In this document: positions 3,458-47,817 of the stretch, piece by piece
Position numbering within the stretch: position 1 is the first letter of the stretch
How the letters are laid out: each line of letters starts with the position of its first letter
Source: Bacteroidota bacterium
GTDB lineage: Bacteria > Bacteroidota > Bacteroidia > NS11-12g > UBA9320
DNA length: 64,000 bases
Direction: 5' to 3'
Assembly (NCBI GenBank): GCA_947468275.1
Contig: CANIKO010000018.1
Coordinates: forward strand, 1-64,000
Made by a program: the position numbers and the translations under genes
Notes under the pieces: generated by a model
Database searches by the model: none
What the model saw: only the letters and a program-made list of their open reading frames with translations
Told to the model about the DNA's origin: nothing

Positions 3458-4603
3458 TTGATTCCAAGTAATTCTTTAGCCCACCAAAGGTTTTCCTTTT
3501 TTGAATATAGCTGCATTACTGATATAGCGGATATTTGGGATAGTATATTACCAGTAAATCATTCTTTAGTAAGTCCAAATTTAAAGGTATTGGAGTTGGC
3601 GAAGCCCGACGATATGCAATTTAAATATTTAATGGTTCGGAAAATGGATGCGGTAATTGGTGTAATTTATTTACAACAATTAAAAATAACAACGAACCAC
3701 TTTGATGGTACAGCCATAGATAAGCCTGGTTTGGGGTGGTTAAAGAAATGTATTAATAGTCAGTTTAGGGATGTGTTGATTTGTGGCAATTTATTTAGGG
3801 TACATTTTCCTGGATATTACTTTAAAAATACGAAGGACGATAGCTTAGTCTTTGAAATACTGACTGATTACCTTAACTCAACCAAAGAAAATAAAAGGTT
3901 TTGTGGCATTTTAGTAAAGGATAGTCCACATCAATTTAAGGATTTGGATAAATTTAAACCGTATCATGATGACGTCACTATGGAAATTGAGATAAAGAAT
4001 CAATGGAAATCAATGGACGACTATAAGTTTAGCTTGCGAAAAAAGTACCGACAGCGTTATAATACCATTCAAAATTCAGGTAAATCTGTTACCTTTAAGG
4101 AATTTTCATTGGATGAAATTATAATGAATGCTTCGCAAATAGAGCAGCTTTATTTGAATGTTGCACTCAAGCAGTCCTTGCGAATAGGATTTGTTAATGC
4201 GGCCTATTTTATAGAAATGAAACGGTGTTATGGCGATTCTTTCATATTAAAAGGGTATTATTTTAATAATGAGTTAGTCGCATTTAGTAGCCATATTATG
4301 TATGAAAATGAAGTAATGGAAATTCACTTTATAGGATTAAATTATAATCATAATGATTCCCAATCGCTCTATTTTAATATTTTATTTGATGGTTTGGAAA
4401 TAGCTATTTTAAAAAAAATGAAGCGATTGGAACTTGGTCGTACCGCCCGTGTAGCAAAGGCTTCCTTGGGGGGTAAGCCCATCGGTATTTTTAATTATAT
4501 TTTACTTAAAAAAGGGATTCCATCATTGGCTTTTACTTTTTTCAATACATGGTTTGTGAAAAGTTTGGGTGAAGATTGGATGCAACGAAATCCTTTTAAA
4601 TAG
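3458..4603 (+). CDS. FemAB/GNAT-like acyltransferase family protein
   Basis: The protein has 381 residues. The C-terminal half, about residues 165-350, looks like the GNAT fold of the Acetyltransf_6/FemAB-like group seen in Bacteroidota. It has a basic helix (SLRKKYRQRYN), a strand-rich core (YYFNNELVAFSSHIMYENEVMEIHF) and a late LELGRTARVAKASLGG motif. Such proteins transfer acyl or aminoacyl groups, often in cell-envelope synthesis, but the substrate cannot be read here. The start is TTG: an in-frame TAA lies two codons upstream and no ATG is near. The gene stands alone, with DivIC following after about 70 bases. The family assignment is by resemblance only. Confidence 0.7.
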   Translation: MIPSNSLAHQRFSFFEYSCITDIADIWDSILPVNHSLVSPNLKVLELAKPDDMQFKYLMVRKMDAVIGVIYLQQLKITTNHFDGTAIDKPGLGWLKKCINSQFRDVLICGNLFRVHFPGYYFKNTKDDSLVFEILTDYLNSTKENKRFCGILVKDSPHQFKDLDKFKPYHDDVTMEIEIKNQWKSMDDYKFSLRKKYRQRYNTIQNSGKSVTFKEFSLDEIIMNASQIEQLYLNVALKQSLRIGFVNAAYFIEMKRCYGDSFILKGYYFNNELVAFSSHIMYENEVMEIHFIGLNYNHNDSQSLYFNILFDGLEIAILKKMKRLELGRTARVAKASLGGKPIGIFNYILLKKGIPSLAFTFFNTWFVKSLGEDWMQRNPFK

Positions 4604-4641
4604 CTGTCGTTTTCTTTTGGCACAATGTGGATACAACTTAG

Positions 4642-4670
4642 TTGTATTTTTAATAATATTCTTAATTTTG
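4642..4670 (+). promoter_or_regulatory. Promoter TTG-N18-TAATTTTG for the DivIC gene
   Basis: TTG at 4642-4644 and TAATTTTG at 4663-4670 are separated by 18 bases. The -7 box ends 5 bases before ATG 4676, so the transcript should be nearly leaderless. This also argues against the longer reading frame starting at 4625. Confidence 0.65.
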
Positions 4671-4675
4671 ATGGT

Positions 4676-4957
4676 ATGAAAAAGTTGCTAAAAAATAAGT
4701 ATATCCTTACCCTCTTGATTTTTGGAGTATGGATGATTTTCTTTGATCAGAACAGTTATTTATCGCAACGAAAAATCAACAAAGAGCTCAATCAATTGGA
4801 GGCTCGTAAAAAAGTATACATTAATCAAAATGAATTACTTAGAGTTCAGAGAGAAAGTTTACTTGGTAGTTTTGATAATCTTGAAAAGTTAGCGCGTGAA
4901 AAGTATCTAATGAAACGCGACGATGAGGATGTTTATCTAGTGGAAGTGGAAAATTAA
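4676..4957 (+). CDS. DivIC/FtsB family septum formation protein
   Basis: This 93-residue bitopic membrane protein has a short basic N-terminus (MKKLLKNKY), one membrane helix (about 8-24), then a coiled coil (about 28-65, from SQRKINKELNQ). It ends in the FDNLEKLAREKYLMKRDDEDVYLV segment, typical of the DivIC/FtsB family. In the divisome, FtsB-type proteins bridge FtsL and FtsQ at the septum in the periplasm. The frame is open upstream to 4625, but ATG 4676 is preferred because a promoter -7 box ends 5 bases before it and the membrane helix then sits at the usual distance from the start. Confidence 0.85.
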   Translation: MKKLLKNKYILTLLIFGVWMIFFDQNSYLSQRKINKELNQLEARKKVYINQNELLRVQRESLLGSFDNLEKLAREKYLMKRDDEDVYLVEVEN

Positions 4958-5058
4958 AAAAATAATTTTACGTAATTCGTTCCTAAAAACGAGAAGCTGA
5001 ATTTTAATATAATTGGGTCATAAAATAATTCTTAATCCCAATCCTTTATAAATTAATT

Positions 5059-6036
5059 TTATCTATATACCACAGAATTAACTGCATCCATAATGCGTTT
5101 TACATTTGGTAAAAACACTTCCACCAAAGTTGGGGCATATGGCAAAGGGGTGTCACGAGTGGTAACGCGTGTAACAGGGGCATCTAAATAATCAAAGGCA
5201 TATTTTTGCATCCAATAGGCTATTTCGCCTGAAATACTTGCCAATGGCCAAGCTTCTTCTACCACAACCATACGATTCGTCTTTTTGACAGATTCCAACA
5301 TGGTGAGGTAGTCAATTGGCCTCACGGTTCTCAAGTCAATTACCTCTGCATTAATACCATTTTTTTCAAGTTCTATAACGGTTTGATCCACTACTCGCAT
5401 CATTTTTCCAAATGAAACAATGGTAACATCTGTTCCTTCTTTTGTAACTTTCGCTTTTCCAATGGGGATTAAATATTCACCATCGGGTACTTCGCCTTTA
5501 GTTCCATACATCTGTTCCGATTCCATAAATATAACTGGGTCATTATCGCGAATCGATGATTTTAGTAATCCTTTGGCATCCGCAGGATTAGAAGGCACAA
5601 CTACCTTTAATCCGGGACAATTTGCAAACCAGTTTTCAAAACTTTGAGAATGTTGAGCTCCTAATTGGCCGGCACTTCCTGTGGGACCTCTAAAAACCAT
5701 AGGTGCTCCAAAATTTCCACCGCTCATCGAAAGCATTTTGGCGGCCGCATTTACTACTTGATCTATGGCCACTAACGAAAAATTAAAGGTCATAAATTCT
5801 ACAATTGGTCTTAGTCCGTTCATGGCAGCACCAACAGCAATTCCAGCAAATCCTAATTCGGCAATTGGAGTATCCACCACACGCTTAGGTCCAAATTCAG
5901 CAAGCATTCCTTGGCTCACTTTATAGGCGCCATTATATTCAGCTACTTCTTCCCCTATTAACAGGATTTTTGAGTCAAGTCTCATTTCTTCTTCCATAGC
6001 TTCACGAAGCGCTTCACGAAATTGTAGGGTTTTCAT
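5059..6036 (-). CDS. pdhB: Pyruvate dehydrogenase E1 component, beta subunit
   Basis: The protein has 325 residues, full length for an E1 beta subunit. It binds thiamine diphosphate together with the alpha subunit and decarboxylates pyruvate, feeding acetyl groups to E2. Visible signatures are the N-terminal FREALREAMEEEM, the EVAEYNGAYKVSQGM segment, DTPIAELGFAGIAVGAA near residues 55-70, FRGPTGSAGQLGAQHSQ, and the transketolase C-terminal domain with GKMMRVVDQT and EEAWPLASISGEIA. No alpha subunit or E2 gene is next to it, so the complex is encoded at more than one locus. The gene is convergent with divIC. The other possible reading, a branched-chain 2-oxoacid dehydrogenase beta subunit, is less likely. 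Confidence 0.93.
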   Translation of the reverse strand: MKTLQFREALREAMEEEMRLDSKILLIGEEVAEYNGAYKVSQGMLAEFGPKRVVDTPIAELGFAGIAVGAAMNGLRPIVEFMTFNFSLVAIDQVVNAAAKMLSMSGGNFGAPMVFRGPTGSAGQLGAQHSQSFENWFANCPGLKVVVPSNPADAKGLLKSSIRDNDPVIFMESEQMYGTKGEVPDGEYLIPIGKAKVTKEGTDVTIVSFGKMMRVVDQTVIELEKNGINAEVIDLRTVRPIDYLTMLESVKKTNRMVVVEEAWPLASISGEIAYWMQKYAFDYLDAPVTRVTTRDTPLPYAPTLVEVFLPNVKRIMDAVNSVVYR

Positions 6037-6150
6037 TTGATAATTAATTTTATTTCTATTTTTAATTAAGGGTTGTATCGAATCGTCTATTTTTAATTTA
6101 TTTCAAACAAAACAAAATAGAGTTATGTTTCATTTGTTTAAAAAAGAGTG

Positions 6151-6158
6151 CAAAAATA
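6151..6158 (-). promoter_or_regulatory. Possible -7 box (TATTTTTG) for pdhB
   Basis: On the minus strand this reads TATTTTTG, a TAnnTTTG match 114 bases upstream of the pdhB ATG. It lies just downstream of the SRP RNA gene, so pdhB need not rely on read-through. No good -33 element is visible. Confidence 0.4.
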
Positions 6159-6191
6159 GGTTTTAGATGTGAAAATGGAAACCAGTATAAA

Positions 6192-6284
6192 ACAAAACAA
6201 GCCAGTATCGCACCGCTACAACCTTCTACCCTTGCTGCATTCCTGCCCTGGGGGATTAAAAGGGAGCTGGTCGTACTGACTTGT
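6192..6284 (-). ncRNA. ffs: Signal recognition particle RNA (small bacterial type)
   Basis: The minus strand carries the conserved domain IV core: CCCCCAGGGCAGGAATGCAGCAAGGGTA, read at about 6253-6226, with the GGAA-type tetraloop region and the asymmetric internal loop that binds Ffh. The ends pair: CAAGTCAGTA (6283-6274 in RNA order) with TACTGGCTTG (6207-6198), leaving one G-U pair. The RNA is about 90 bases and ends in a U-rich run (TTGTTTTGTTTT), so the closing stem may itself act as the terminator. A TAATTTTG box sits just upstream. The exact ends are estimated. Confidence 0.92.
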
Positions 6285-6288
6285 GCTG

Positions 6289-6296
6289 CAAAATTA
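6289..6296 (-). promoter_or_regulatory. -7 box (TAATTTTG) of the SRP RNA gene
   Basis: TAATTTTG on the minus strand ends about 5 bases before the first paired base of the SRP RNA at 6283, the distance expected for a transcription start. Confidence 0.65.
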
Positions 6297-6453
6297 ATAA
6301 TTTTTCCGGATTTAAATTTATAAATTCTTGTTTTGTTAAATTCTTATCGCTGTAAATAAGTCAATTATTATTTATTGTAATTTTTAAACAATCTGACCTT
6401 AAAAAGTTGTTGCATCAAAATGTCTTAAATCTGAATATATCACATCTTAACTA

Positions 6454-6461
6454 TAAATTTG
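6454..6461 (+). promoter_or_regulatory. -7 box (TAAATTTG) of the acyl-CoA carboxylase gene
   Basis: TAAATTTG ends 7 bases before ATG 6469, predicting a nearly leaderless mRNA. No clear -33 TTG is seen. Confidence 0.6.
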
Positions 6462-6468
6462 CCACCAA

Positions 6469-8085
6469 ATGTATGACATAGAATTTAATAGGAACGAAGA
6501 CAGTATGAAACTGTTTTGGAATCAAATTCGAACACTGGGTGAAAAAATTGAAAAAGGAGGAGGGGATAAGGCCGCAGCCAAACACAAAGAAAATGGTAAA
6601 ATGCTGGCGCGAGAAAGAATAGAATACCTAAAAGATAATGACGCCACTTTTTATGAAATAGGCTTATTTGCTGGTCATGGGATGTATAAGGAACATGGCG
6701 GTTGCCCGGCTGGGGGAGTGGTAGGGGGGATTACATATATTGCAGGTCGACAATGCGTAATTGTGGCTAACGATGCCACAGTTAAAGCGGGAGCATGGTT
6801 TCCTATGACGGCTAAAAAAAGTCTTCGCTTTCAGGAAATAGCAATGGAAAACAGACTTCCTATTATATACTTAGTAGATAGTGCCGGAGTGTTTTTACCA
6901 ATGCAAGATGAAATATTTGCCGATAAGGATCATTTTGGAAGAATATTTAGAAACAATGCAAAACTAAGCAGTATGGGGATTACCCAAATAGCCGCTGTTA
7001 TGGGAAGTTGTGTTGCGGGAGGAGCCTATTTGCCAATAATGAGTGATGAGGCATTGATTGTAGATAAAACAGGTTCTATATTTTTGGCTGGAAGTTATTT
7101 AGTTAAAGCGGCCATTGGTGAAATAGTAGATAATGAAACTTTAGGAGGGTCGGTGACTCAATCTGAAATTTCAGGAGTTATTGACGATCGATTTCCGGAT
7201 GACAAATCTTGTCTTGACAGAATAAAATTTATCATGGACAAAATAGGCCATTTCGAAACTGCAGGGATCGATAGAAAAGAATCTGTAGAACCTAAAAAAG
7301 ATCCAAAAGAAATTTATGGCTTACTTCCTGAAAATAAATCAAAAACCTATAAATCCATTGAAATTATTGAACGATTGGTTGATAATTCAGAATTTGAACA
7401 GTACAAAAAAGGGTATGGTCAAACCATATTGTGTGGCTATGCCCGCATAGATGGTTGGTCTGTAGGGATTGTGGCCAATAATCGCGTAGTGGTTAAAACC
7501 AAAAGTGGAGAAATGCAATTCGGAGGGGCCATATATTCAGACTCGGCAGATAAAGCTGCTCGATTTATTATGAACTGTAACCAGAAAAAAATTCCACTTG
7601 TCTTTCTCCAAGATGTTACAGGGTTTATGGTAGGTTCGCGCAGCGAACAAAGTGGTATTATTAAAGATGGTGCAAAGATGGTAAATGCTATGAGCAACAG
7701 CACTGTTCCAAAGTTTACCATTATTTTGAGTAATAGTTACGGCGCTGGTAATTATGCCATGTGCGGCAAAGCCTATGACCCAAGAATAATATTAGCCTGG
7801 CCAACTGCAAAAATTGCCGTGATGGGCGGCGAACAGGCGGCCAAAACATTATTACAACTAGAAAAATCAAAAATAGGAACTGTAACCCCTGAAGAAGAAA
7901 AGGCATTGTTGGATAGAATAACTGATCGATATAATTTACAAACGACTTCAATTCATGCAGCTTCTAATCTTTGGGTAGATGCAATTATTGACCCTTTGGA
8001 GACTCGAAATTGGATTTCAATGGGGATTGAAGCCGCCAATCATGCCCCAATAACGACGTTTAATGTTGGAGTTATTCAAACCTAA
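6469..8085 (+). CDS. Acyl-CoA carboxylase, carboxyltransferase (beta) subunit
   Basis: The protein has 538 residues, the usual length for biotin-dependent acyl-CoA carboxylase beta subunits. It moves carboxyl from carboxybiotin to an acyl-CoA. The sequence is closest in style to methylcrotonoyl-CoA carboxylase beta: YLVDSAGVFLPMQDEIFADKDHFGRIF in the N-terminal crotonase-like domain (about residues 135-165), MGSCVAGGAYLPIMSDE and GSIFLAGSYLVKAA. The C-terminal domain has DVTGFMVGSRSEQSGII and SNSYGAGNYAMCGKAYDPR. This would fit leucine breakdown, but propionyl- or geranyl-CoA substrates cannot be excluded. No biotin carboxylase subunit lies next to it. The start is set by the -7 box 7 bases upstream. 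Confidence 0.88.
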   Translation: MYDIEFNRNEDSMKLFWNQIRTLGEKIEKGGGDKAAAKHKENGKMLARERIEYLKDNDATFYEIGLFAGHGMYKEHGGCPAGGVVGGITYIAGRQCVIVANDATVKAGAWFPMTAKKSLRFQEIAMENRLPIIYLVDSAGVFLPMQDEIFADKDHFGRIFRNNAKLSSMGITQIAAVMGSCVAGGAYLPIMSDEALIVDKTGSIFLAGSYLVKAAIGEIVDNETLGGSVTQSEISGVIDDRFPDDKSCLDRIKFIMDKIGHFETAGIDRKESVEPKKDPKEIYGLLPENKSKTYKSIEIIERLVDNSEFEQYKKGYGQTILCGYARIDGWSVGIVANNRVVVKTKSGEMQFGGAIYSDSADKAARFIMNCNQKKIPLVFLQDVTGFMVGSRSEQSGIIKDGAKMVNAMSNSTVPKFTIILSNSYGAGNYAMCGKAYDPRIILAWPTAKIAVMGGEQAAKTLLQLEKSKIGTVTPEEEKALLDRITDRYNLQTTSIHAASNLWVDAIIDPLETRNWISMGIEAANHAPITTFNVGVIQT

Positions 8086-28543: not shown

Positions 28544-28823
28544 ATTTTAATTGATCGCCTATAAATGGTAAGATAGCTAAATGACGTGCACGTTTTACCG
28601 CTTCGGCCACTTTTCGTTGGTATTTTAAGGATGTTCCTGTTAAACGACGAGGTAAAAGTTTTCCTTGATCATTTACAAATTTCATTAAAAAATCTGCATT
28701 TTTAAAATCGATGTATTTAATTCCACTTTTTTTGAATCTGCAATATTTTTTCTTGAATTGCAGTGGTGAATTATTGAAAATAAAGCTGTCGTCTTGGGCT
28801 GATGATTTTTTTACCTTGCTCAT
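28542..28823 (-). CDS. rpsR: 30S ribosomal protein S18 (bS18)
   Basis: The protein has 93 residues with the S18 core: CRFKKSGIKYIDFKNADFLMKFVNDQGKLLPRRLTGTSLKYQRKVAEAVKRARHLAILPF. It binds 16S rRNA in the platform next to S6 and S21. The N-terminal 20 residues are lineage-specific. Its ATG overlaps the rpsF stop as ATGA. A perfect AAGGAGG lies 7 bases before the ATG inside the last rpsF codons (coding KEV). In Flavobacterium ribosomes bS18, bS6 and bS21 bury the anti-Shine-Dalgarno of 16S rRNA, so this SD could serve autoregulation (inference). Confidence 0.97.
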   Translation of the reverse strand: MSKVKKSSAQDDSFIFNNSPLQFKKKYCRFKKSGIKYIDFKNADFLMKFVNDQGKLLPRRLTGTSLKYQRKVAEAVKRARHLAILPFIGDQLK

Positions 28824-29188
28824 ATTGTTACCTCCTTAATTACTTTTGGTTTGTTAAACTCACCTTTGCTTCTGCGTTCGTTATAAAGAACAGCATGCTT
28901 GTCAAGTGCAATAGTTAAATAGCGAAGCACTTGCTCATCACGACGATACGCTAATTCAAGTTTGGCAACGATTGTGCCTGGAGCTTGAAATTCGAAAATG
29001 TGATAAAAACCTGTACTTTTTTTAGCAATGGGATAAGCCAATTTTGTTAATCCCCAGTTTTCTTCGCGGACAATGTTTCCGCCTTGCTCTGTAATCAATT
29101 GGCGAAAAGATGCAATGGCTTCTTGCATTTGTTTTTCGGCCAATACGGGCGTTAGTATGATTACAGATTCATAATTTTTTAATACCAT
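28820..29188 (-). CDS. rpsF: 30S ribosomal protein S6 (bS6)
   Basis: The 122-residue protein is a single ferredoxin-like domain: NYESVIILTPVLAEKQMQEAIASFRQLI, then EENWGLTKLAYPIAKKSTGFYHIFEF and RDEQVLRYLTIALDKHA. It pairs with S18 on the small-subunit platform. The frame is open 11 codons further, to 29221, but a promoter (TTTG-N19-TACTTTTG at 29219-29249) covers that start, so ATG 29188 is right and the leader is about 25 bases. No Shine-Dalgarno precedes it, in contrast to the two downstream genes. Confidence 0.96.
   Translation of the reverse strand: MVLKNYESVIILTPVLAEKQMQEAIASFRQLITEQGGNIVREENWGLTKLAYPIAKKSTGFYHIFEFQAPGTIVAKLELAYRRDEQVLRYLTIALDKHAVLYNERRSKGEFNKPKVIKEVTI
28831..28837 (-). 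promoter_or_regulatory. Perfect Shine-Dalgarno (AAGGAGG) of rpsR
   Basis: On the minus strand AAGGAGG ends 7 bases before the rpsR ATG at 28823, the best spacing for pairing with the 16S rRNA tail. It lies within the end of rpsF. Confidence 0.88.
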
Positions 29189-29249: not shown

Positions 29250-29326
29250 TCATATTTTTTGAAATGCTCGAAATCGCCTGCTTGCCGATTTCTGTTAGAA
29301 AATCAAAGAAAAAATACAAGCCTTTT

Positions 29327-30088
29327 CTATTGGTTGCTGCGACCTTCTGAAATAAATACCTTTTTGTTACAGACATAATTACCGTTCCTTACCTTTACGA
29401 TAACTAGCCCATTTGCAAGTGAATTGGTATTATATAAATCAATTTCATAAATAGATTTATATGGTTTTGTATCAACCGTTTTAATAAGATTTCCTAAAAT
29501 ATCAATCACTTCAATTGAAATATTTTTTGCTGGTTTTTCTATTTTTACATTAAATTTATTCAAAGTGGGATTTGGATAAATGGTTATGTTTCCTATATTT
29601 ATGGGAAATATTTGTAATCTTGAATCATGATAAACACTTTGGCAGAACTTATTATTTATCATTTCTGTTTTCGATTCTTTTTCAATACTATCTGCTTTAT
29701 AGCCCGCTAAGTACAATGTGCCGCAAAAAGTAGTATTATTATCAGTATCCCAAATCATTTTTAAAAGTACTTCAATGGTGTCTTGTTCCCCCGATAGTAT
29801 ATTTCGATAAGGATAACTAAAAAAATACCCATATTGAACATTACCAAAGGTTATGTCAAATGAATAAGTATCTCCTATTTTGATAATATCGGGACCGTTA
29901 TTTTTTATTATAAATTTGGAAAGATACGTGCCTTTTATTCTTGAAATGATGGTATCTCCAGCTTTTGGAGTTAGCACAACTAGTGCTGCATCAATTTTCC
30001 TTGCTTGTCCGTAAGCATCAAGATTAGCATTAATTAGGAATATTGATGCAAGTATGACTATTAATGAAGTACTATTAATTTTGAACAT
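29327..30088 (-). CDS. Secreted protein with T9SS type A sorting domain (tandem copy 2)
   Basis: The 253-residue protein has a signal peptide (about 1-28, ending DAYGQ). The middle beta-sandwich (about 30-165) starts ARKIDAALVVLTPKAGD and resembles a CARDB-like or Ig-like fold. The C-terminal type A sorting domain has ITIYPNPTLNKFNV, ISIEVIDILGNLIKT and NGLVIVKVRNGNYVCNKKVFI. It would be exported through the outer membrane by T9SS. It overlaps the upstream gene by 28 bases and the two proteins share layout and opening segments, so they look like diverged tandem paralogs. The function is unknown. Confidence 0.85.
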   Translation of the reverse strand: MFKINSTSLIVILASIFLINANLDAYGQARKIDAALVVLTPKAGDTIISRIKGTYLSKFIIKNNGPDIIKIGDTYSFDITFGNVQYGYFFSYPYRNILSGEQDTIEVLLKMIWDTDNNTTFCGTLYLAGYKADSIEKESKTEMINNKFCQSVYHDSRLQIFPINIGNITIYPNPTLNKFNVKIEKPAKNISIEVIDILGNLIKTVDTKPYKSIYEIDLYNTNSLANGLVIVKVRNGNYVCNKKVFISEGRSNQ

Positions 30089-30795
30089 ATTGGTGTGTTG
30101 TTATCAGCAATTGTGATAAAATAAACTCCGTTATTAAAGTCAGAAGTGTTAATAGATATTAAACTTTTATTACTATGAAAATAATATTCCTTAATTAATT
30201 GTCCATTTATATCAGATATCCCAATCTTTATATTTTTTAACTCATCTTCAAATTTAATGTATAGCAAGTCACTTGCAGGGTTAGGAAATTTGCTAAATTT
30301 ATCCCTATCTATATTACTAATGTTGCTTGTAGGGGATCGGTACTTTAGATTATTTAAAGAAATACGATTGTCCTTTTGTTGTTCTAAATTTTCCAGAATT
30401 ATTCCATTTACTGACCTATTTAAAGGTAGTGCATTTAACGAAATGTAAAAATAATTGTAATCTTTAGGGCTGGAATATGGATAAGTAAAACTCATTATTA
30501 TAGAATCATTTACATTAATATCTTTTTGTAAAGGAATTATTAAAGGGAAAGGTTTGATTATAGAATCATAAATTTTGCCGTCAATATATAGGCTATCATA
30601 TTTAAAAATCTTATCTGAACCTTTATTAAATACACTGTAATAGAAGGTGATGAATCCATTCGATTTTATATAATCACCATCTTTTAGAACTATGATTCTT
30701 ATTCGTAAATCTACATTCCGTTTCTGCCCGTAAACAGTCGATACATTGATAAACAAACCAAAGAGGAACACTAGAATAATTATTAATATCCGCAT
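30061..30795 (-). CDS. Secreted protein with T9SS type A sorting domain (tandem copy 1)
   Basis: The 244-residue protein has a signal peptide of about 23 residues (cut near VYGQ). The beta-rich middle begins KRNVDLRIRIIVLKDGD, which lines up with ARKIDAALVVLTPKAGD in the following gene. The C-terminal sorting domain has FPNPASDLLYIKFE, IGISDINGQLIKEYYF and NGVYFITIADN. It is the middle gene of a tight three-gene unit, 11 bases after the cysteine-rich peptide gene and overlapping the next gene. The shared context suggests the two secreted proteins and the peptide work together, but the job is unknown. Confidence 0.85.
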   Translation of the reverse strand: MRILIIILVFLFGLFINVSTVYGQKRNVDLRIRIIVLKDGDYIKSNGFITFYYSVFNKGSDKIFKYDSLYIDGKIYDSIIKPFPLIIPLQKDINVNDSIIMSFTYPYSSPKDYNYFYISLNALPLNRSVNGIILENLEQQKDNRISLNNLKYRSPTSNISNIDRDKFSKFPNPASDLLYIKFEDELKNIKIGISDINGQLIKEYYFHSNKSLISINTSDFNNGVYFITIADNNTPICSKLIVLH

Positions 30796-30806
30796 ATAAT
30801 TTATTT

Positions 30807-31052
30807 TTAATCATTAGAACCACCGCTAGTACCGCAATAACAGCAAATAGAAAAAGGTTTTGTAAAGTGTATTAATGGACAATCAATTTCATTACCAATG
30901 CATGGCTTTAAGGTAATTTCGAAATTGAAGGTAAAGCAACATCCTACATTATAGCCTAAACTATTTACACAACCATTTTGTTCGCAGAAATTTTGAATAG
31001 GTATTTGATAACCCTGATTTTCAGCCAAATTATTTAAAGTTTGAAGTTTCAT
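30807..31052 (-). CDS. Cysteine-rich small protein of unknown function
   Basis: The protein has 81 residues with nine cysteines at 23, 28, 38, 39, 51, 58, 70, 71 and 73, and a GTSGGSND tail. It has no signal peptide or membrane helix. The first 20 residues (MKLQTLNNLAENQGYQIPIQ) are cysteine-free and polar, giving a leader-plus-core look seen in some ribosomally made peptides, but no modifying enzyme, protease or exporter gene is in the window. It begins a unit with two T9SS proteins (11-base gap). A metal-binding or disulfide-rich role is equally possible. It looks real from position and spacing; I know no family for it. Confidence 0.6.
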   Translation of the reverse strand: MKLQTLNNLAENQGYQIPIQNFCEQNGCVNSLGYNVGCCFTFNFEITLKPCIGNEIDCPLIHFTKPFSICCYCGTSGGSND

Positions 31053-31200
31053 ATTTTATATATTAGACAACAATGATATAATTAAAATATAAAGCATGGG
31101 GATTTTATTCAGTATTTTATACCAAGTTACTTTCTAACCAATCAAATTATCATAAACTTCATTAATAATGTAAAATAAATTGAAATATTAAAATCTAAAA

Positions 31201-31226
31201 TAAAAATGGTGAGGATTTAATCCTCA
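31201..31226 (-). terminator. Possible terminator after the lipoprotein gene
   Basis: TGAGGATT (31210-31217), one centre base and AATCCTCA (31219-31226) form a compact hairpin. In RNA order it is followed by CCATTTTTATTTT. It lies 27 bases after the lipoprotein stop. Confidence 0.5.
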
Positions 31227-31252
31227 AACCTTTTAAAATTTTTTTGAAAAAA

Positions 31253-31786
31253 TTACTTTTTTGTAAACGTAAAATTTATCTTAGATGTAGTTTCCACTTG
31301 AGTTATAGGATTAGTAAAAACATAATCAGTTACACCTTTCATCTCTGTATCTGTAATTACCACTTGGTCAATAATCACTTTATTGGCATTTATTAAACTA
31401 AAATAGGCAGAGTTGGTTATTTCAATTTGGGTTTCATTATTTGTAAAACGCCAGTTTCCATCTTTCGCAGTTTGTGGTTCTGTACCACATTTCAACGCTC
31501 CGTTATCAATGGTCATTGAACTGTCGGCGTTAAAAATAATTAGATTGTCTTTTTGGCAATCTTCAATTAGTGGTATTTCAAACAGTTCATTAAAGGTGAA
31601 ATTTTGGGTTCCGATAGTAGTTACAATTGGGGGGACAAAAGTGGCCTTGGTAAGCAACCAATTAGAAGCAACCAATTTTTGGGTATTTGTTTTGGTACTA
31701 GATGGGTTAGGTGTTTTGTCTTTACAGGCATTTAAAAGGAACACACTAACCACTATTAAGGATATAAAGATTTTTGTAAATTTCAT
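31253..31786 (-). CDS. Lipocalin-like lipoprotein
   Basis: The 177-residue protein has a lipoprotein signal with lipobox LNAC, so Cys21 should be lipidated. The mature part is beta-rich: NWLLTKATF at its start, DNLIIFNADSSMTIDNGALKCGTE in the middle and GNWRFTNNETQIEI, a sequence pattern of Bacteroidota lipocalin-like proteins (DUF5004/lipocalin_4 type). Placement in the envelope is expected; the ligand is unknown. It precedes the cysteine-rich peptide operon, but a hairpin and a 200-base gap separate them. Confidence 0.8.
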   Translation of the reverse strand: MKFTKIFISLIVVSVFLLNACKDKTPNPSSTKTNTQKLVASNWLLTKATFVPPIVTTIGTQNFTFNELFEIPLIEDCQKDNLIIFNADSSMTIDNGALKCGTEPQTAKDGNWRFTNNETQIEITNSAYFSLINANKVIIDQVVITDTEMKGVTDYVFTNPITQVETTSKINFTFTKK

Positions 31787-42862: not shown

Positions 42863-42948
42863 TTGTCTTTCATAAATACCTTTTCAACAATAAATTGAAA
42901 TAATAAGAAAGCTTGGTTGATTTATTTATCTTCGAAACCTAATTGGAT

Positions 42949-45900
42949 ATGATGAGATTTATTCTACTAACAATTTTTGGGTTTATTTTAAACTTTGTTT
43001 CAGCACAAACCCTTCACCCTGTTCATCTTAAATCAGGGGATTATTTTCCTATAGCCATTGATAAAATAAGTCTTAAAGAAAACAAACCTTTCGCTATTTT
43101 TCAATTTGAAACTTTACCAAATACAGACGATTTTTATGAAAAAACAGGAGTTAAACTTTTGAATTATTTGCCCGATAATAGTTTTTTTGCTGCAATTCCT
43201 TCCAATTTTGATTTAAAGATAATTCCCAAAAATGTTTCAGGTATTTTAGAAATAACCTCGCCTATGAAGACGGATTTAGCTAGTTGGGCTAATCGTTCAG
43301 TAAGTGTAATAAAGCTTGTTTATTTTGAAACCGCTGATGTTTCTAAAATTCTGAGAAGCATAGAAAAAAAAGGGTTTGAGGTTTTAAGGTTTTATAAAGG
43401 TTTTCAAACTATCTATGTAAAAGCAAAACCTAGTTATTCTCCATTATTAGAGATAGAAGAAATATATTGGGCTGAGCCGACTTATGAAAAATTGGAAGCG
43501 TTTAATTTAGTGGAGCGTAGCAACCATCGTGCAAATGTAATTGGTGATAATAGTAGACCCGGTAAAGGACTTACTGGCGCAGGAATAAAAATTGGAGAAT
43601 GGGATGGTGGTGATGTGGGTAGTCACGAAGATTTTAATTATAGGCTAACAGTTATTAAAAAAGCTGGGGTTAGTAGCCATGCAACACATGTTTGCGGTAC
43701 AATGGCTGGAGCAGGAAATATTGAGCCTTTTGCCAAAGGAATGGCACCAAATGCCAAAATTTACAGTTGGGATTTTAATGATGATATTCCAGTTGAAATG
43801 GATACCTGCTATCCAATATATGGATATACGCTAACTCAGAATTCATATGCATATGGTGCTGCAGATGACCCTTGTGTGCTGCGTGGAAATTATGATGAAA
43901 TCAGCCGTGAAATGGATTTGACAGTTGAAAAATATCCAAACCTATTACATGTGTTTGCAGCCGGAAACTCGAGAGGTGATAATTGCCGTTCAGGTGGTTT
44001 TAAAACTGTTAACAGTGGTTTTCAATGTGCAAAAAATACAATGGCAGTGGCCGCTATTACTGACTTGGATGGCGATGCGGGTTTTAGCAGTTGTGGCCCA
44101 ACTCGTGATGGCCGATTAAAACCTGAAGTAAGTTCAGTGGGAGTTAATGTTTACAGTACTCTTCAAGGTAATATTTATCAAGGGGGATGGAGTGGGACAA
44201 GTATGGCCTGCCCGGGTGCTAGCGGAACTACTGCTCTTATTTATGAATATTATAAACGAAAATATAATACGTTACCTGATGCTCATTTAGCAAAGAACTT
44301 CATGGCTAATTCAGCAGATGATATTGGTAATGCAGGTCCAGATTTTAGATATGGTTTCGGGCGAATTAACGGACGTAGGGCTATTCAGATTGTAGATTCC
44401 AAATCGTTCAAATTGGATTCAGTAAAACAAAATAATTCAGATTATGATACTTTGAAAATTCCAAAGGGCTTATATAAACTGAAAATAATGTTATGTTGGA
44501 ATGATAAAGCTGCCACAATACCAGCGAAACCTTGCTTAATAAATGATTTGGATTTGTCTTTAATCGACAGTTTAGGGACTGTTTATAAGCCTTGGGTGTT
44601 GGATACTGTAACCCATAATGCTGTAGCTCAAAGAGGTAGGGATAGTCTTAATAATATAGAACAAGTAACAATTGATAATCCACCATCAGGAAGGCTAATT
44701 ATTTTAGTGAAAGGCAAACGCGTTACCACCTCATTTCAGAATTATTCGCTAACTTGGGATATTGTAAATACTGGTGTTACGATTACTTATCCCAATGGGC
44801 AAGAATCGTTTCCCCCTCCTTCTTCATCGGGAGTTGCCCAAACCATCCGATGGGATGCTTATAATTTAACAGGAAATGCAAAAATTGAATACTCTGAAAA
44901 TAAGGGCGCCACCTGGCAAACTATTGTGGGTTCTGTACCTATTAGTCAAAAATATTTTGTTTGGAATGCTTCGGCTGATACAATTAATACCAATAAGGCA
45001 TTAATGAAAATTACCTTAGGAAGTTATGTCGACCAAAGCGATACTACATTTACAATTTATAAAATTCCTTCAAGTTTAATTGGAGTAATTTGTGATAGTC
45101 AGGTCCATTTTCGTTGGCCCAAACAAAAGGATGCCATTTCTTATAAATTATTTCAACTCAAGGTTGGAGAGATGCAAACTATTTATGCAGGTACAGATAC
45201 TTTTTTTACAGTAAGACCATTAAATAATGGTCTAGCTTATTGGTTTTCTTTAAGCAGTATTTCTAAATCGGGAGGTGAAAGTCAACGGATGGTGGCTAGT
45301 AGTTTTACTCCAACATCAGCAACCAAACCACCTAAAATTAGCTTAAATTTATGGGATACAGCAGGTTGTAAAAATACAAACATGGTTCTTAAATCTACTT
45401 TTACAGGAACTGCCACTGTTATAACTTCTTGGCAAAGAAGCTTAGATAATGGGAAAAATTGGGGAACACTTAATGGTCGAGTTTCAGATACATTATTATT
45501 GATTAAACCAACTTTTTCCCAAAACGGATGGAAATACCGAAGGGTATATTACAACGCATGTGAAGGGAGGGTTTACACTAAAGAGGCTAAAGTGGAAATT
45601 GATACAGGAATGGTCAGTTTTACAATACCAAAAGATACCCTAGGTTGCATGGATGCTAATTTTACCTTGAAAATTTATAACATTAAATCGGTTTCGAAAC
45701 CATACGTTAGTTGGTTTTATAATTATAATATCACAATGGACCCTTTTACATATATCAAACGAAGTTATGAACCTTTTATAAAATTCACTAAATTTTCAAC
45801 CTATCAAAACCAATATACAGCCGTGAGTGCAAGAAACGGTTGTGTAACAAACTATAGTAGTTCTGGATATCCAGGAATTAATGTATCAGTGGCGCCAAGA

Positions 45901-47817
45901 CTATCAATTAACTGGTCTGATTTTGACACCATTTGTTTAGGAAAAACTTATACTTTAAAACCTGAAATTACTGGAGGTAATGTGGCTTGGTATCAATATT
46001 TATGGACTGGTCCGGGAGTTAGTTCCAAAAAGGATTGGATTATTGTAAAACCTGATACCACTACCCGATATTATTTTAAACTTAACGACCGCGGATGTTC
46101 AGTAGATAGTTTAAAGGATTCCATCGATATAGTGGTAAGACCGAAATTAGAACTTTTTACCTCAGCCGATACAACTATTTGTGCGGGAACCCCTATAATT
46201 ATAAAAGCTTGGGCTAAAGGAGGTAATGGTAAATATAAATTTCTTTGGAATAATGGATTGCCAGTGTTAGCACAACATAAAATTTGGCCCAACAAAACAA
46301 CCGTTTATTATATAACCCTTACCGATAGTTGTTCCGTCACAATTCCTAAAGATAGTATTGTCGTAAAAGTGTTGCCTTATCTTAAACTGCAGCTCAGTTC
46401 TATAAGCGATACAATTTGTATTGGGCAAACTACTCTGTTGAAAGCAAATGCCACTGGTGGAAAAAGTGCTGGATATAGATTTTTATGGGACACCAAACAA
46501 AGTGATTCCACAATAATTGTTAATCCTAAGTTGACTCGAACGTATTATATTAATTTTAAAGATGGTTGCACCAATCAAATAATTAACGATTCTATTAAAG
46601 TTAACGTGAGATTGCCACTGACTTTAAAAGTAGTGGCAGCGGATACCGTTTGTCATAATATTCCATTTTATACATCAGTTAATTGTAGCGGAGGCAACCA
46701 ATCTACTTACAGGATTGATTGGAGTCGCTTTACCACCCCTGGTGACTTAAAAACAGATAGTACAAAAATTGGTATTTGGGAAAAAGCAATTTTAACAGAC
46801 AACTGCACCTTACTGGCCACAGCAGATAGCGTTTGGGTTGATGTTTGGCAACTTCCTAAAATTAAAGCTGCAGCAGATACTACTTTATGTTTTGGTCAGG
46901 ATCATATTTTTTATTCCACTTTTTCTGGTGGTAAAAAAGGGACACAAAAAATCTGGTGGGAGTTTAACAAGGCCCTACTTTCCAATCCTGTAGCCCTTGA
47001 CCCAAAGACTCCCGGAAAGTTCAATTACATTGCAGTAATTAAAGATGGTTGCCAGTTTATAGAAAAAGATACAACTACGATTGTTGTACTTGCCAAATTG
47101 GATATAACCCCAAAAAGCTTGCAAAAATGCAGCCCACAGGATTCATTGATTTTCTTTAAATCATCAGGAGGAAAACCTTTAAAAACCCAAATGACATGGT
47201 TGGACGGGACCCAAGGATTTTCAAAATTGTTTAAAGAAAAATCCACTCAAATTTACTCGGTAATTTTACGCGATGGATGCAGTGATACTGCAATGTATCA
47301 AATCTCGGCGGTGGTTGATGAATTTGGTAATAATAATTTTAGTATATTATCGGTAATTGATAAAGTAGTAACATTAAAAGCTGGAATCCCACTACAAAAG
47401 GTGGATTGGGATTTTGGTGATGCAACTCATAGGTTCAGTTTAGATACGGTTTTAGAAAATAAATATTCTGATTATAATTCCTACATAATTTGCAAAAAAC
47501 AAAGCGACCGAATAGGCTGCACCATAGAATTCTGTGACACTGTAGATGTTATTAATGTTATGAAAAACGAATGGTTCACAATGGCAGTTTTACCTAACCC
47601 TAGTGACGGAAAATTCAATCTTCTGTTTAATAAAATTCCTGGAAATTTAAAAGTAGAAGTATTTAATGAATTGGGCCAGGCTTTATTTAGCCATTCTTCA
47701 ATAAATTATGTCGGGATCAATTTTCCCATAGATATTGGAACCGTGGCCAGGGGTTTATATTTTTTAAGAGTAACTATGAACGAAGAAGTTGTTACGCGAA
47801 AAATTCAGGTAAAATAA
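42949..47817 (+). CDS. Giant subtilisin-family (S8) protease with T9SS type A sorting domain
   Basis: The protein has 1,622 residues. A signal peptide covers about 1-20 and a propeptide-like region reaches about 190. The S8 catalytic triad is complete: Asp219 (GEWDGGD), His244 (SSHATHVCGTMAG) and Ser418 (GTSMACPG), plus the oxyanion Asn in AAGNSRGDN. After a jelly-roll-like segment (about 480-610) there are fibronectin/Ig-like modules. A series of repeats follows with ADTTICAGT-type starts and YYITLTDSCS-type ends, each containing DTxCxG and LxDGC elements. The type A sorting domain has PNPSDGKFNLLFN and LYFLRVTMN. Export and surface protease action are expected. A TTG two codons earlier is possible. 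TATCTTCG lies 14 bases before the ATG. Confidence 0.93.
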   Translation: MMRFILLTIFGFILNFVSAQTLHPVHLKSGDYFPIAIDKISLKENKPFAIFQFETLPNTDDFYEKTGVKLLNYLPDNSFFAAIPSNFDLKIIPKNVSGILEITSPMKTDLASWANRSVSVIKLVYFETADVSKILRSIEKKGFEVLRFYKGFQTIYVKAKPSYSPLLEIEEIYWAEPTYEKLEAFNLVERSNHRANVIGDNSRPGKGLTGAGIKIGEWDGGDVGSHEDFNYRLTVIKKAGVSSHATHVCGTMAGAGNIEPFAKGMAPNAKIYSWDFNDDIPVEMDTCYPIYGYTLTQNSYAYGAADDPCVLRGNYDEISREMDLTVEKYPNLLHVFAAGNSRGDNCRSGGFKTVNSGFQCAKNTMAVAAITDLDGDAGFSSCGPTRDGRLKPEVSSVGVNVYSTLQGNIYQGGWSGTSMACPGASGTTALIYEYYKRKYNTLPDAHLAKNFMANSADDIGNAGPDFRYGFGRINGRRAIQIVDSKSFKLDSVKQNNSDYDTLKIPKGLYKLKIMLCWNDKAATIPAKPCLINDLDLSLIDSLGTVYKPWVLDTVTHNAVAQRGRDSLNNIEQVTIDNPPSGRLIILVKGKRVTTSFQNYSLTWDIVNTGVTITYPNGQESFPPPSSSGVAQTIRWDAYNLTGNAKIEYSENKGATWQTIVGSVPISQKYFVWNASADTINTNKALMKITLGSYVDQSDTTFTIYKIPSSLIGVICDSQVHFRWPKQKDAISYKLFQLKVGEMQTIYAGTDTFFTVRPLNNGLAYWFSLSSISKSGGESQRMVASSFTPTSATKPPKISLNLWDTAGCKNTNMVLKSTFTGTATVITSWQRSLDNGKNWGTLNGRVSDTLLLIKPTFSQNGWKYRRVYYNACEGRVYTKEAKVEIDTGMVSFTIPKDTLGCMDANFTLKIYNIKSVSKPYVSWFYNYNITMDPFTYIKRSYEPFIKFTKFSTYQNQYTAVSARNGCVTNYSSSGYPGINVSVAPRLSINWSDFDTICLGKTYTLKPEITGGNVAWYQYLWTGPGVSSKKDWIIVKPDTTTRYYFKLNDRGCSVDSLKDSIDIVVRPKLELFTSADTTICAGTPIIIKAWAKGGNGKYKFLWNNGLPVLAQHKIWPNKTTVYYITLTDSCSVTIPKDSIVVKVLPYLKLQLSSISDTICIGQTTLLKANATGGKSAGYRFLWDTKQSDSTIIVNPKLTRTYYINFKDGCTNQIINDSIKVNVRLPLTLKVVAADTVCHNIPFYTSVNCSGGNQSTYRIDWSRFTTPGDLKTDSTKIGIWEKAILTDNCTLLATADSVWVDVWQLPKIKAAADTTLCFGQDHIFYSTFSGGKKGTQKIWWEFNKALLSNPVALDPKTPGKFNYIAVIKDGCQFIEKDTTTIVVLAKLDITPKSLQKCSPQDSLIFFKSSGGKPLKTQMTWLDGTQGFSKLFKEKSTQIYSVILRDGCSDTAMYQISAVVDEFGNNNFSILSVIDKVVTLKAGIPLQKVDWDFGDATHRFSLDTVLENKYSDYNSYIICKKQSDRIGCTIEFCDTVDVINVMKNEWFTMAVLPNPSDGKFNLLFNKIPGNLKVEVFNELGQALFSHSSINYVGINFPIDIGTVARGLYFLRVTMNEEVVTRKIQVK

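Follow-up and report, generated by a model that had tools for sequence, protein, structure and literature searches.

An 81-residue, cysteine-rich reading frame in a Bacteroidota genome is probably the truncated first gene of a conserved T9SS operon

The operon and its insertion site

On the minus strand of the window (the whole stretch of DNA that was analysed, 64,000 nucleotides in length), a reading frame of 81 codons, open throughout and in frame with its ATG, precedes the genes of two T9SS proteins, A and B (Table 1). Its product has nine cysteines, at residues 23, 28, 38, 39, 51, 58, 70, 71, and 73; residues 1–22 are free of cysteine, and, judged by eye, a hydrophobic signal peptide is absent. 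The preliminary description of this DNA, which gave the frame the same length, the same nine cysteines, the same cysteine-free head of 22 residues, and no signal peptide, is right on all of these points, and its reading frames are real. Its two tandem T9SS-sorted proteins 11 bases behind the peptide are likewise borne out by the ORF positions and by profile scores: the gap to gene A is 11 nt, the ORF of B overlaps that of A, and the Por_Secre_tail domain (PF18962) scores above its gathering score of 27 in both A (56.5 bits) and B (35.2 bits).

Table 1. Features of the operon and its flanks (positions in the window).
Feature	Position	Strand	Basis or remark
81-aa ORF; probable truncated remnant of a gene for a secreted cysteine-rich ('NCYQ') protein, first gene of the operon	30807..31052	minus	homology
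First 8 codons, MKLQTLNN; probable native start of the parent gene, followed by an in-frame junction	31029..31052	minus	alignment to 5' ends of G005 and G001
C-terminal domain kept in this ORF, beginning LAENQGYQIPI; has 7 of the 10 cysteines that are invariant in the family	30810..31028	minus	alignments A1 and A2
-7-like box TATCATTG, one mismatch from TAnnTTTG, 18 nt before the ATG	31071..31078	minus	by eye
T9SS protein A, 244 aa; Sec signal, Ig-like N-terminal domain, T9SS type A tail	30061..30795	minus	signal by eye
T9SS protein B, 253 aa; Sec signal, CARDB/Ig-like domain, T9SS type A tail	29327..30088	minus	signal by eye
Inserted block of about 2 kb with the 81-aa ORF and both T9SS genes	29255..31252		site unoccupied in G004 and G005
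Conserved lipoprotein gene (DUF5004); flank, outside the operon	31253..31786	minus	
rpsF (ribosomal protein S6); other flank, outside the operon	28823..29188	minus	

By their sorting tails, A and B are predicted to be T9SS type A cargo (PF18962/TIGR04183) destined for export to the cell surface. They share with such cargo a tail that passes the curated cut-off and, as judged by eye, a signal peptide, but differ in their N-terminal domain, which has no Pfam match at E ≤ 0.01 in 28 of the 29 members of the A/B type that were scanned (the remaining one has a weak TrkA_C match there). In a structural model of B (pLDDT 78), this domain has a predicted fold similar to a CARDB domain (3idu_A; Z-score 7.9, rmsd 3.2, 105 residues) and to the Ig-like adhesion domains of the biofilm scaffold RbmA (5g50_B; Z-score 7.2, rmsd 3.9, 104 residues), although B has no Pfam CARDB sequence match and the Z-score of 7.9 may mean a shared Ig-like arrangement only. 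The tail domain of B matches the T9SS C-terminal domain of RgpB (5ag8_A) with a Z-score of 7.1 but an rmsd of 14.6. For A, the Ig-like domain is assigned by homology to B. The two proteins are only 36–46 per cent identical to their counterparts in the related genomes G001 and G005; both are intact and may still work. Lineage-specific changes in A number 43, 39, and 45 at the three codon positions, and with almost no third-position bias the protein seems to be evolving very fast here.

In G004 and G005, whose rpsF genes are 96 and 98 per cent identical to that of the window, uvrA, the lipoprotein gene, and rpsF form one group that lacks the block. On the rpsF side, G005 and the window are 100 per cent identical as far as base 29254; on the other side, their homology extends to the stop codon of the lipoprotein gene (31253). 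The approximately 2.0 kb in between are therefore extra in the window. The GC content of this block is 27.6 per cent, as against 34.7 per cent for the window, and is undercut by 2 of 621 sampled stretches of equal length.

The operons of G001 and G005 lie elsewhere, behind a gene for an LTA-synthase-like sulfatase (PF00884; L031, 7165–9030, and L032, 7041–8894, respectively). In the genome of the window (G000), the ortholog of this sulfatase, 81 per cent identical to that of G005, is on a different contig (G000:C2:94988–96823), beside a 740-aa ORF and without an operon; we therefore treat the sulfatase as a neighbor and reject its membership in the operon. Because A and B have low identity to their counterparts, the loci differ, and the local sulfatase has no operon next to it, the operon of the window is a divergent or transferred copy rather than the local ortholog. 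A phage or viral origin was also rejected, as no relative was found among viral contigs (queries P0001 and A3).

In G003, the same gap between the lipoprotein gene and rpsF holds other T9SS-tailed genes, over about 6.7 kb (L089, G003:C9, 4393–11149). It is possible that this gap is an insertion hotspot for surface-protein genes.

Homology of the 81-residue frame and the parent family

With the 81-residue sequence as query, Pfam and NCBIfam return nothing at E ≤ 1. The earlier statement that no known family fits the peptide thus stands as far as these libraries go, but the sequence is homologous to the C-terminal part of a longer, unnamed secreted family. A search of 295 related genomes retrieved clear homologs (E-values of 9.5e-24 and 2.3e-20), and the frame is therefore more than a chance ORF. 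The open frames of the strong matches are mostly 270–350 residues long, not 81, and the query corresponds to the last 60–80 residues of the translated relatives. Against the profile of the family (alignment A2), it matches at E = 1.1e-16 and over positions 207–279 of 287 only. This genome has no second copy of the gene, a full-length query retrieving the 81-residue frame alone. Since the profile match is partial and there is no other copy in the genome, the frame represents the C-terminal domain of the family by itself, and we refer to it below as the stub.

Over 65 codons, the retained domain has 62 per cent amino-acid identity to G001 and the same to G005. In the alignment, the stub cysteines comprise seven of the ten that are invariant in the family and two that are variable. 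The stub differs from the family in that it has no Sec signal peptide, no Ig-like N-terminal domain, and none of three invariant cysteines, namely, the N-terminal CYQ-type cysteine and two central ones.

We labelled this family, which is unnamed in the libraries searched, 'NCYQ' after its motif. Its proteins are 250–330 residues long (homologous ORFs, 250–350 aa) and secreted, to judge by eye from their signal peptides, with a CYQ-type cysteine following the signal. Ten cysteines are invariant across the alignment of 13 full-length members, and intact proteins probably form five disulfides from them. The family alignment A2 has no match in Pfam, NCBIfam, or PDB sequences, and a PDB sequence-profile search with alignment A4 gave matches at E ≥ 0.07 only. 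Among the papers listed on T9SS operons and adhesins, none names such a family in its title or the opening lines of its abstract. The relative from G005, modelled with AlphaFold (mean pLDDT 74, pTM 0.70), has a generic Ig-like beta domain in its N-terminal part (best Z-score 5.7, rmsd 3.1, 80 residues) and a less certain C-terminal part; the fold search with this full-length relative accordingly concerns the N-terminal part and barely covers the region retained in the stub.

The family is present in 17 of 108 genomes of the host's order. In a class-wide draw of 395 genomes, some of them from the order, two others matched, G184 and G185 (weak). The cysteine protein of G184 itself bears a T9SS tail and has no T9SS gene of this kind behind it. 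The analysis also defines an unnamed secreted family with ten invariant cysteines, whose gene stands first in a T9SS operon conserved within one bacterial order.

Conservation of the operon and breakage of its first gene

We counted 19 copies of the NCYQ gene in the order, leaving out that of G025, which runs into the end of its contig. Every one of the 19 is followed directly by a T9SS gene; the gap is 3–38 bases in the 15 copies measured by script, and for the other four (G008, G018, G022, and G020:C7) the T9SS neighbor was taken from ORF tables. Each NCYQ gene is followed by one to four T9SS genes, and within the order these are of the 'R-x-D ... N-x-GPDT' type. Because every copy directly precedes T9SS genes, the operon reading holds. 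The preliminary description had placed the peptide in an operon with the tandem T9SS proteins, had argued from close spacing for one function, and had asked whether homologs of the peptide always neighbor the same T9SS genes; the full-length relatives do lie upstream of such genes, without exception within the order.

The NCYQ gene is broken in 6 of the 19 copies. Besides the copy of the window, these are G001 (in-frame TAG), G087 and G020:C4 (TAA in both), G040:C2 (signal peptide out of frame), and G052, which has a 5' truncation without an ATG and has independently been reduced to almost the same C-terminal piece as the stub. Only 2 of the 35 complete downstream T9SS genes are broken (in G052 and G040:C1), a difference with a Fisher P-value of 0.017 in counts that were compiled by reading, that come from related copies, and in which G005 is scored as intact. 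Five of the relatives are metagenome-assembled genomes, and some breaks may therefore be assembly or sequencing errors. T9SS pairs without any cysteine gene occur in G039:C1, G020:C5, and G011:C12. Recurrent loss of the first gene with the T9SS partners kept could offer a handle for asking what these partners do alone.

In another family of the order, the operon adjoins rplI, again by the rpsF-rpsR-rplI cluster (L107, G039:C1, 1308–3481; L033, G087, 4151–6947). At this rplI locus, the cysteine gene is stopped in G087 and absent in G039.

Origin of the truncated frame and alternative readings

The first eight residues of the stub resemble MKQQTTNN, the ATG frame of G001, and 33–41 bases around the stub start align to the 5' ends of the relatives (TCTAATATATAAAATATGAAACTTCAAACTTTAAATAATT as against TCTTATAATAAAATTATGAAACAACAAACAACAAACAATT in G001). 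The leader and start together score 19 against G005 and 15.5 against G001, values equalled by 1 and 12 of 500 AT-rich control stretches, respectively. The -7-like box deviates at one position from TAnnTTTG, which we take to be the Bacteroidetes -7 consensus; a strict TAnnTTTG was not found upstream of the stub. By eye, TACTTTTG occupies the equivalent position in the relatives, 18 nt (G005) and 19 nt (G001) before the start. A search for remnants of the lost two thirds, in which positions 31053–31300 were translated and compared to the relatives, yielded nothing convincing: five of the six frame-by-relative tests were no better than shuffles (at least 40 of 200 shuffles as high), and one frame was marginal against G005 (7 of 200).

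From these alignments, we infer that an in-frame internal deletion spared the start and the region of the promoter but took out the signal peptide together with the N-terminal domain and part of the C-terminal half. The 'head' of the stub looks like about eight residues of native-looking start joined to internal sequence of the parent's C-terminal domain, and not like a leader. That unrelated upstream sequence chanced to supply the ATG is less likely, although the similarity at the start is short and AT-rich.

Behind the lipoprotein gene, at 31195–31226 on the minus strand, a terminator-like hairpin, GAGGATTTAATCCTC, and then T-rich sequence were recognized by eye; the stub operon therefore probably needs its own promoter. 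Start regions also look damaged in the relatives: by eye, the ATG of G001 is not in the same frame as the remainder of the gene, and in G005 an ATC and a heptamer satellite stand where the ATG would be. About six copies of AAACTTC overlay the start of the cysteine gene in G005 (L032, 8938–8989). As a 20-base run, this satellite has two occurrences in G001 and none in G000, G003, or G004. We do not claim phase variation by these repeats in the G005 copy, where by eye no ATG precedes them.

With a probability that we put at roughly 0.8, the ORF of 81 residues is what decay has left of the leading gene in a surface-protein operon, the first two thirds of a larger parent having been deleted. Most likely, the nine-cysteine peptide represents no novel peptide type but an ordinary evolutionary remnant that heads an uncharacterized but conserved T9SS operon. 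A candidate 'new peptide' is thereby struck off, and a clear gene history takes its place.

Alternatively, repeated 5' loss might free a cysteine domain that selection maintains within the cell or for coupling the translation of the T9SS genes, and the operon would be an unrecognized surface system prone to rapid decay, in which the first gene is lost again and again and the T9SS partners persist; we consider this scenario unlikely. Decidedly unlikely is that the stub is a new, functional small cytoplasmic protein, a freed C-terminal domain whose role might be that of a metal or redox protein, say, or of a regulator linked to the translation of both T9SS genes. Such a function would suit the open 81-codon frame, the retained start and promoter-like box, and the pattern of substitutions. 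The 24 changes specific to the stub lineage fall 7, 3, and 14 on the three codon positions (synonymous 5 versus non-synonymous 2), and its non-synonymous branch, derived from pairwise dN among three members of the genus, is the shortest (about 0.10, the others being 0.20 and 0.23). The short branch and the third-position changes indicate that most of the stub's history passed under constraint, which fits a recent truncation and also a stub still under selection, the three sequences of 65–66 codons being too few to separate the two. Under simulated neutral drift, the frame stays open in about 15–55 per cent of runs at 10–30 random changes. The independent retention of almost the same piece in G052 would also suit a functional stub, but that piece has no ATG at all, and the same short form with a start codon is found in no other of the order's 108 genomes. 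Moreover, the domain has an extracytoplasmic evolutionary past, its partners lying in the part now lost, an odd number of cysteines is left, and T9SS pairs exist without any NCYQ gene. A stand-alone metal-binding peptide, as the preliminary description had considered, is not supported, the ORF being the C-terminal part of a larger secreted family.

An assembly artefact, in which the organism has a full-length gene whose middle was lost in assembly, is very improbable. The single genome sequence comes without reads, and there is no second copy for comparison, so much can be said for it; yet the block lies inside a 69-kb contig, far from the ends, the junction preserves the frame, and no collapsible repeat was seen there: a search tolerating one mismatch finds a single AAACTTCAAACTT in the window, and its repeat is absent from the genome as a 20-base run.

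Finally, the stub shares with RiPP precursors, such as the GG-leader precursors of Bacteroidales, its shortness and a cysteine-free head before a cysteine-rich tail, but the idea of a modified-peptide precursor is hardly credible, given that the head appears to be the start plus internal parent sequence, the relatives are large, ordinary secreted proteins, no NCBIfam precursor model matches at E ≤ 1, and Pfam finds no rSAM, YcaO, or lanthionine enzyme among 24 proteins of the window. These were 4 plus 20 proteins, the 20 drawn from 15.5–48.9 kb exclusive of a 1624-aa ORF (42943–47817), and within that set the earlier remark that the window holds no maturation enzyme agrees with our scan.

If the stub is the remnant of a truncated secreted-protein gene, as we favor, a 2-kb AT-rich block with the operon would have entered between the lipoprotein gene and rpsF, and the in-frame deletion, after or before that insertion, would have joined codons 1–8 directly to those of the C-terminal domain. 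With neither a signal peptide nor the cysteine partners of the missing part, the stub product would be unable to do the parent's extracellular job and so could not replace it outside the cell. An intact set would consist of a Sec-exported cysteine-rich protein and one to four T9SS-exported CARDB/Ig-like proteins with a sorting tail. Its T9SS export and secreted partners suggest a likely role as a surface adhesin or matrix, in which the set would coat the cell with an adhesive or matrix layer and the cysteine-rich protein would act as a disulfide-stabilized partner or scaffold; Ig-like and CARDB folds are common and do not indicate a function by themselves.

The T9SS part of the operon also varies in copy number. 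In G075 (L073, 8007–10379), one cysteine gene is followed by four T9SS genes, three of them near-identical and in tandem and the fourth divergent, a local amplification of the T9SS partner.
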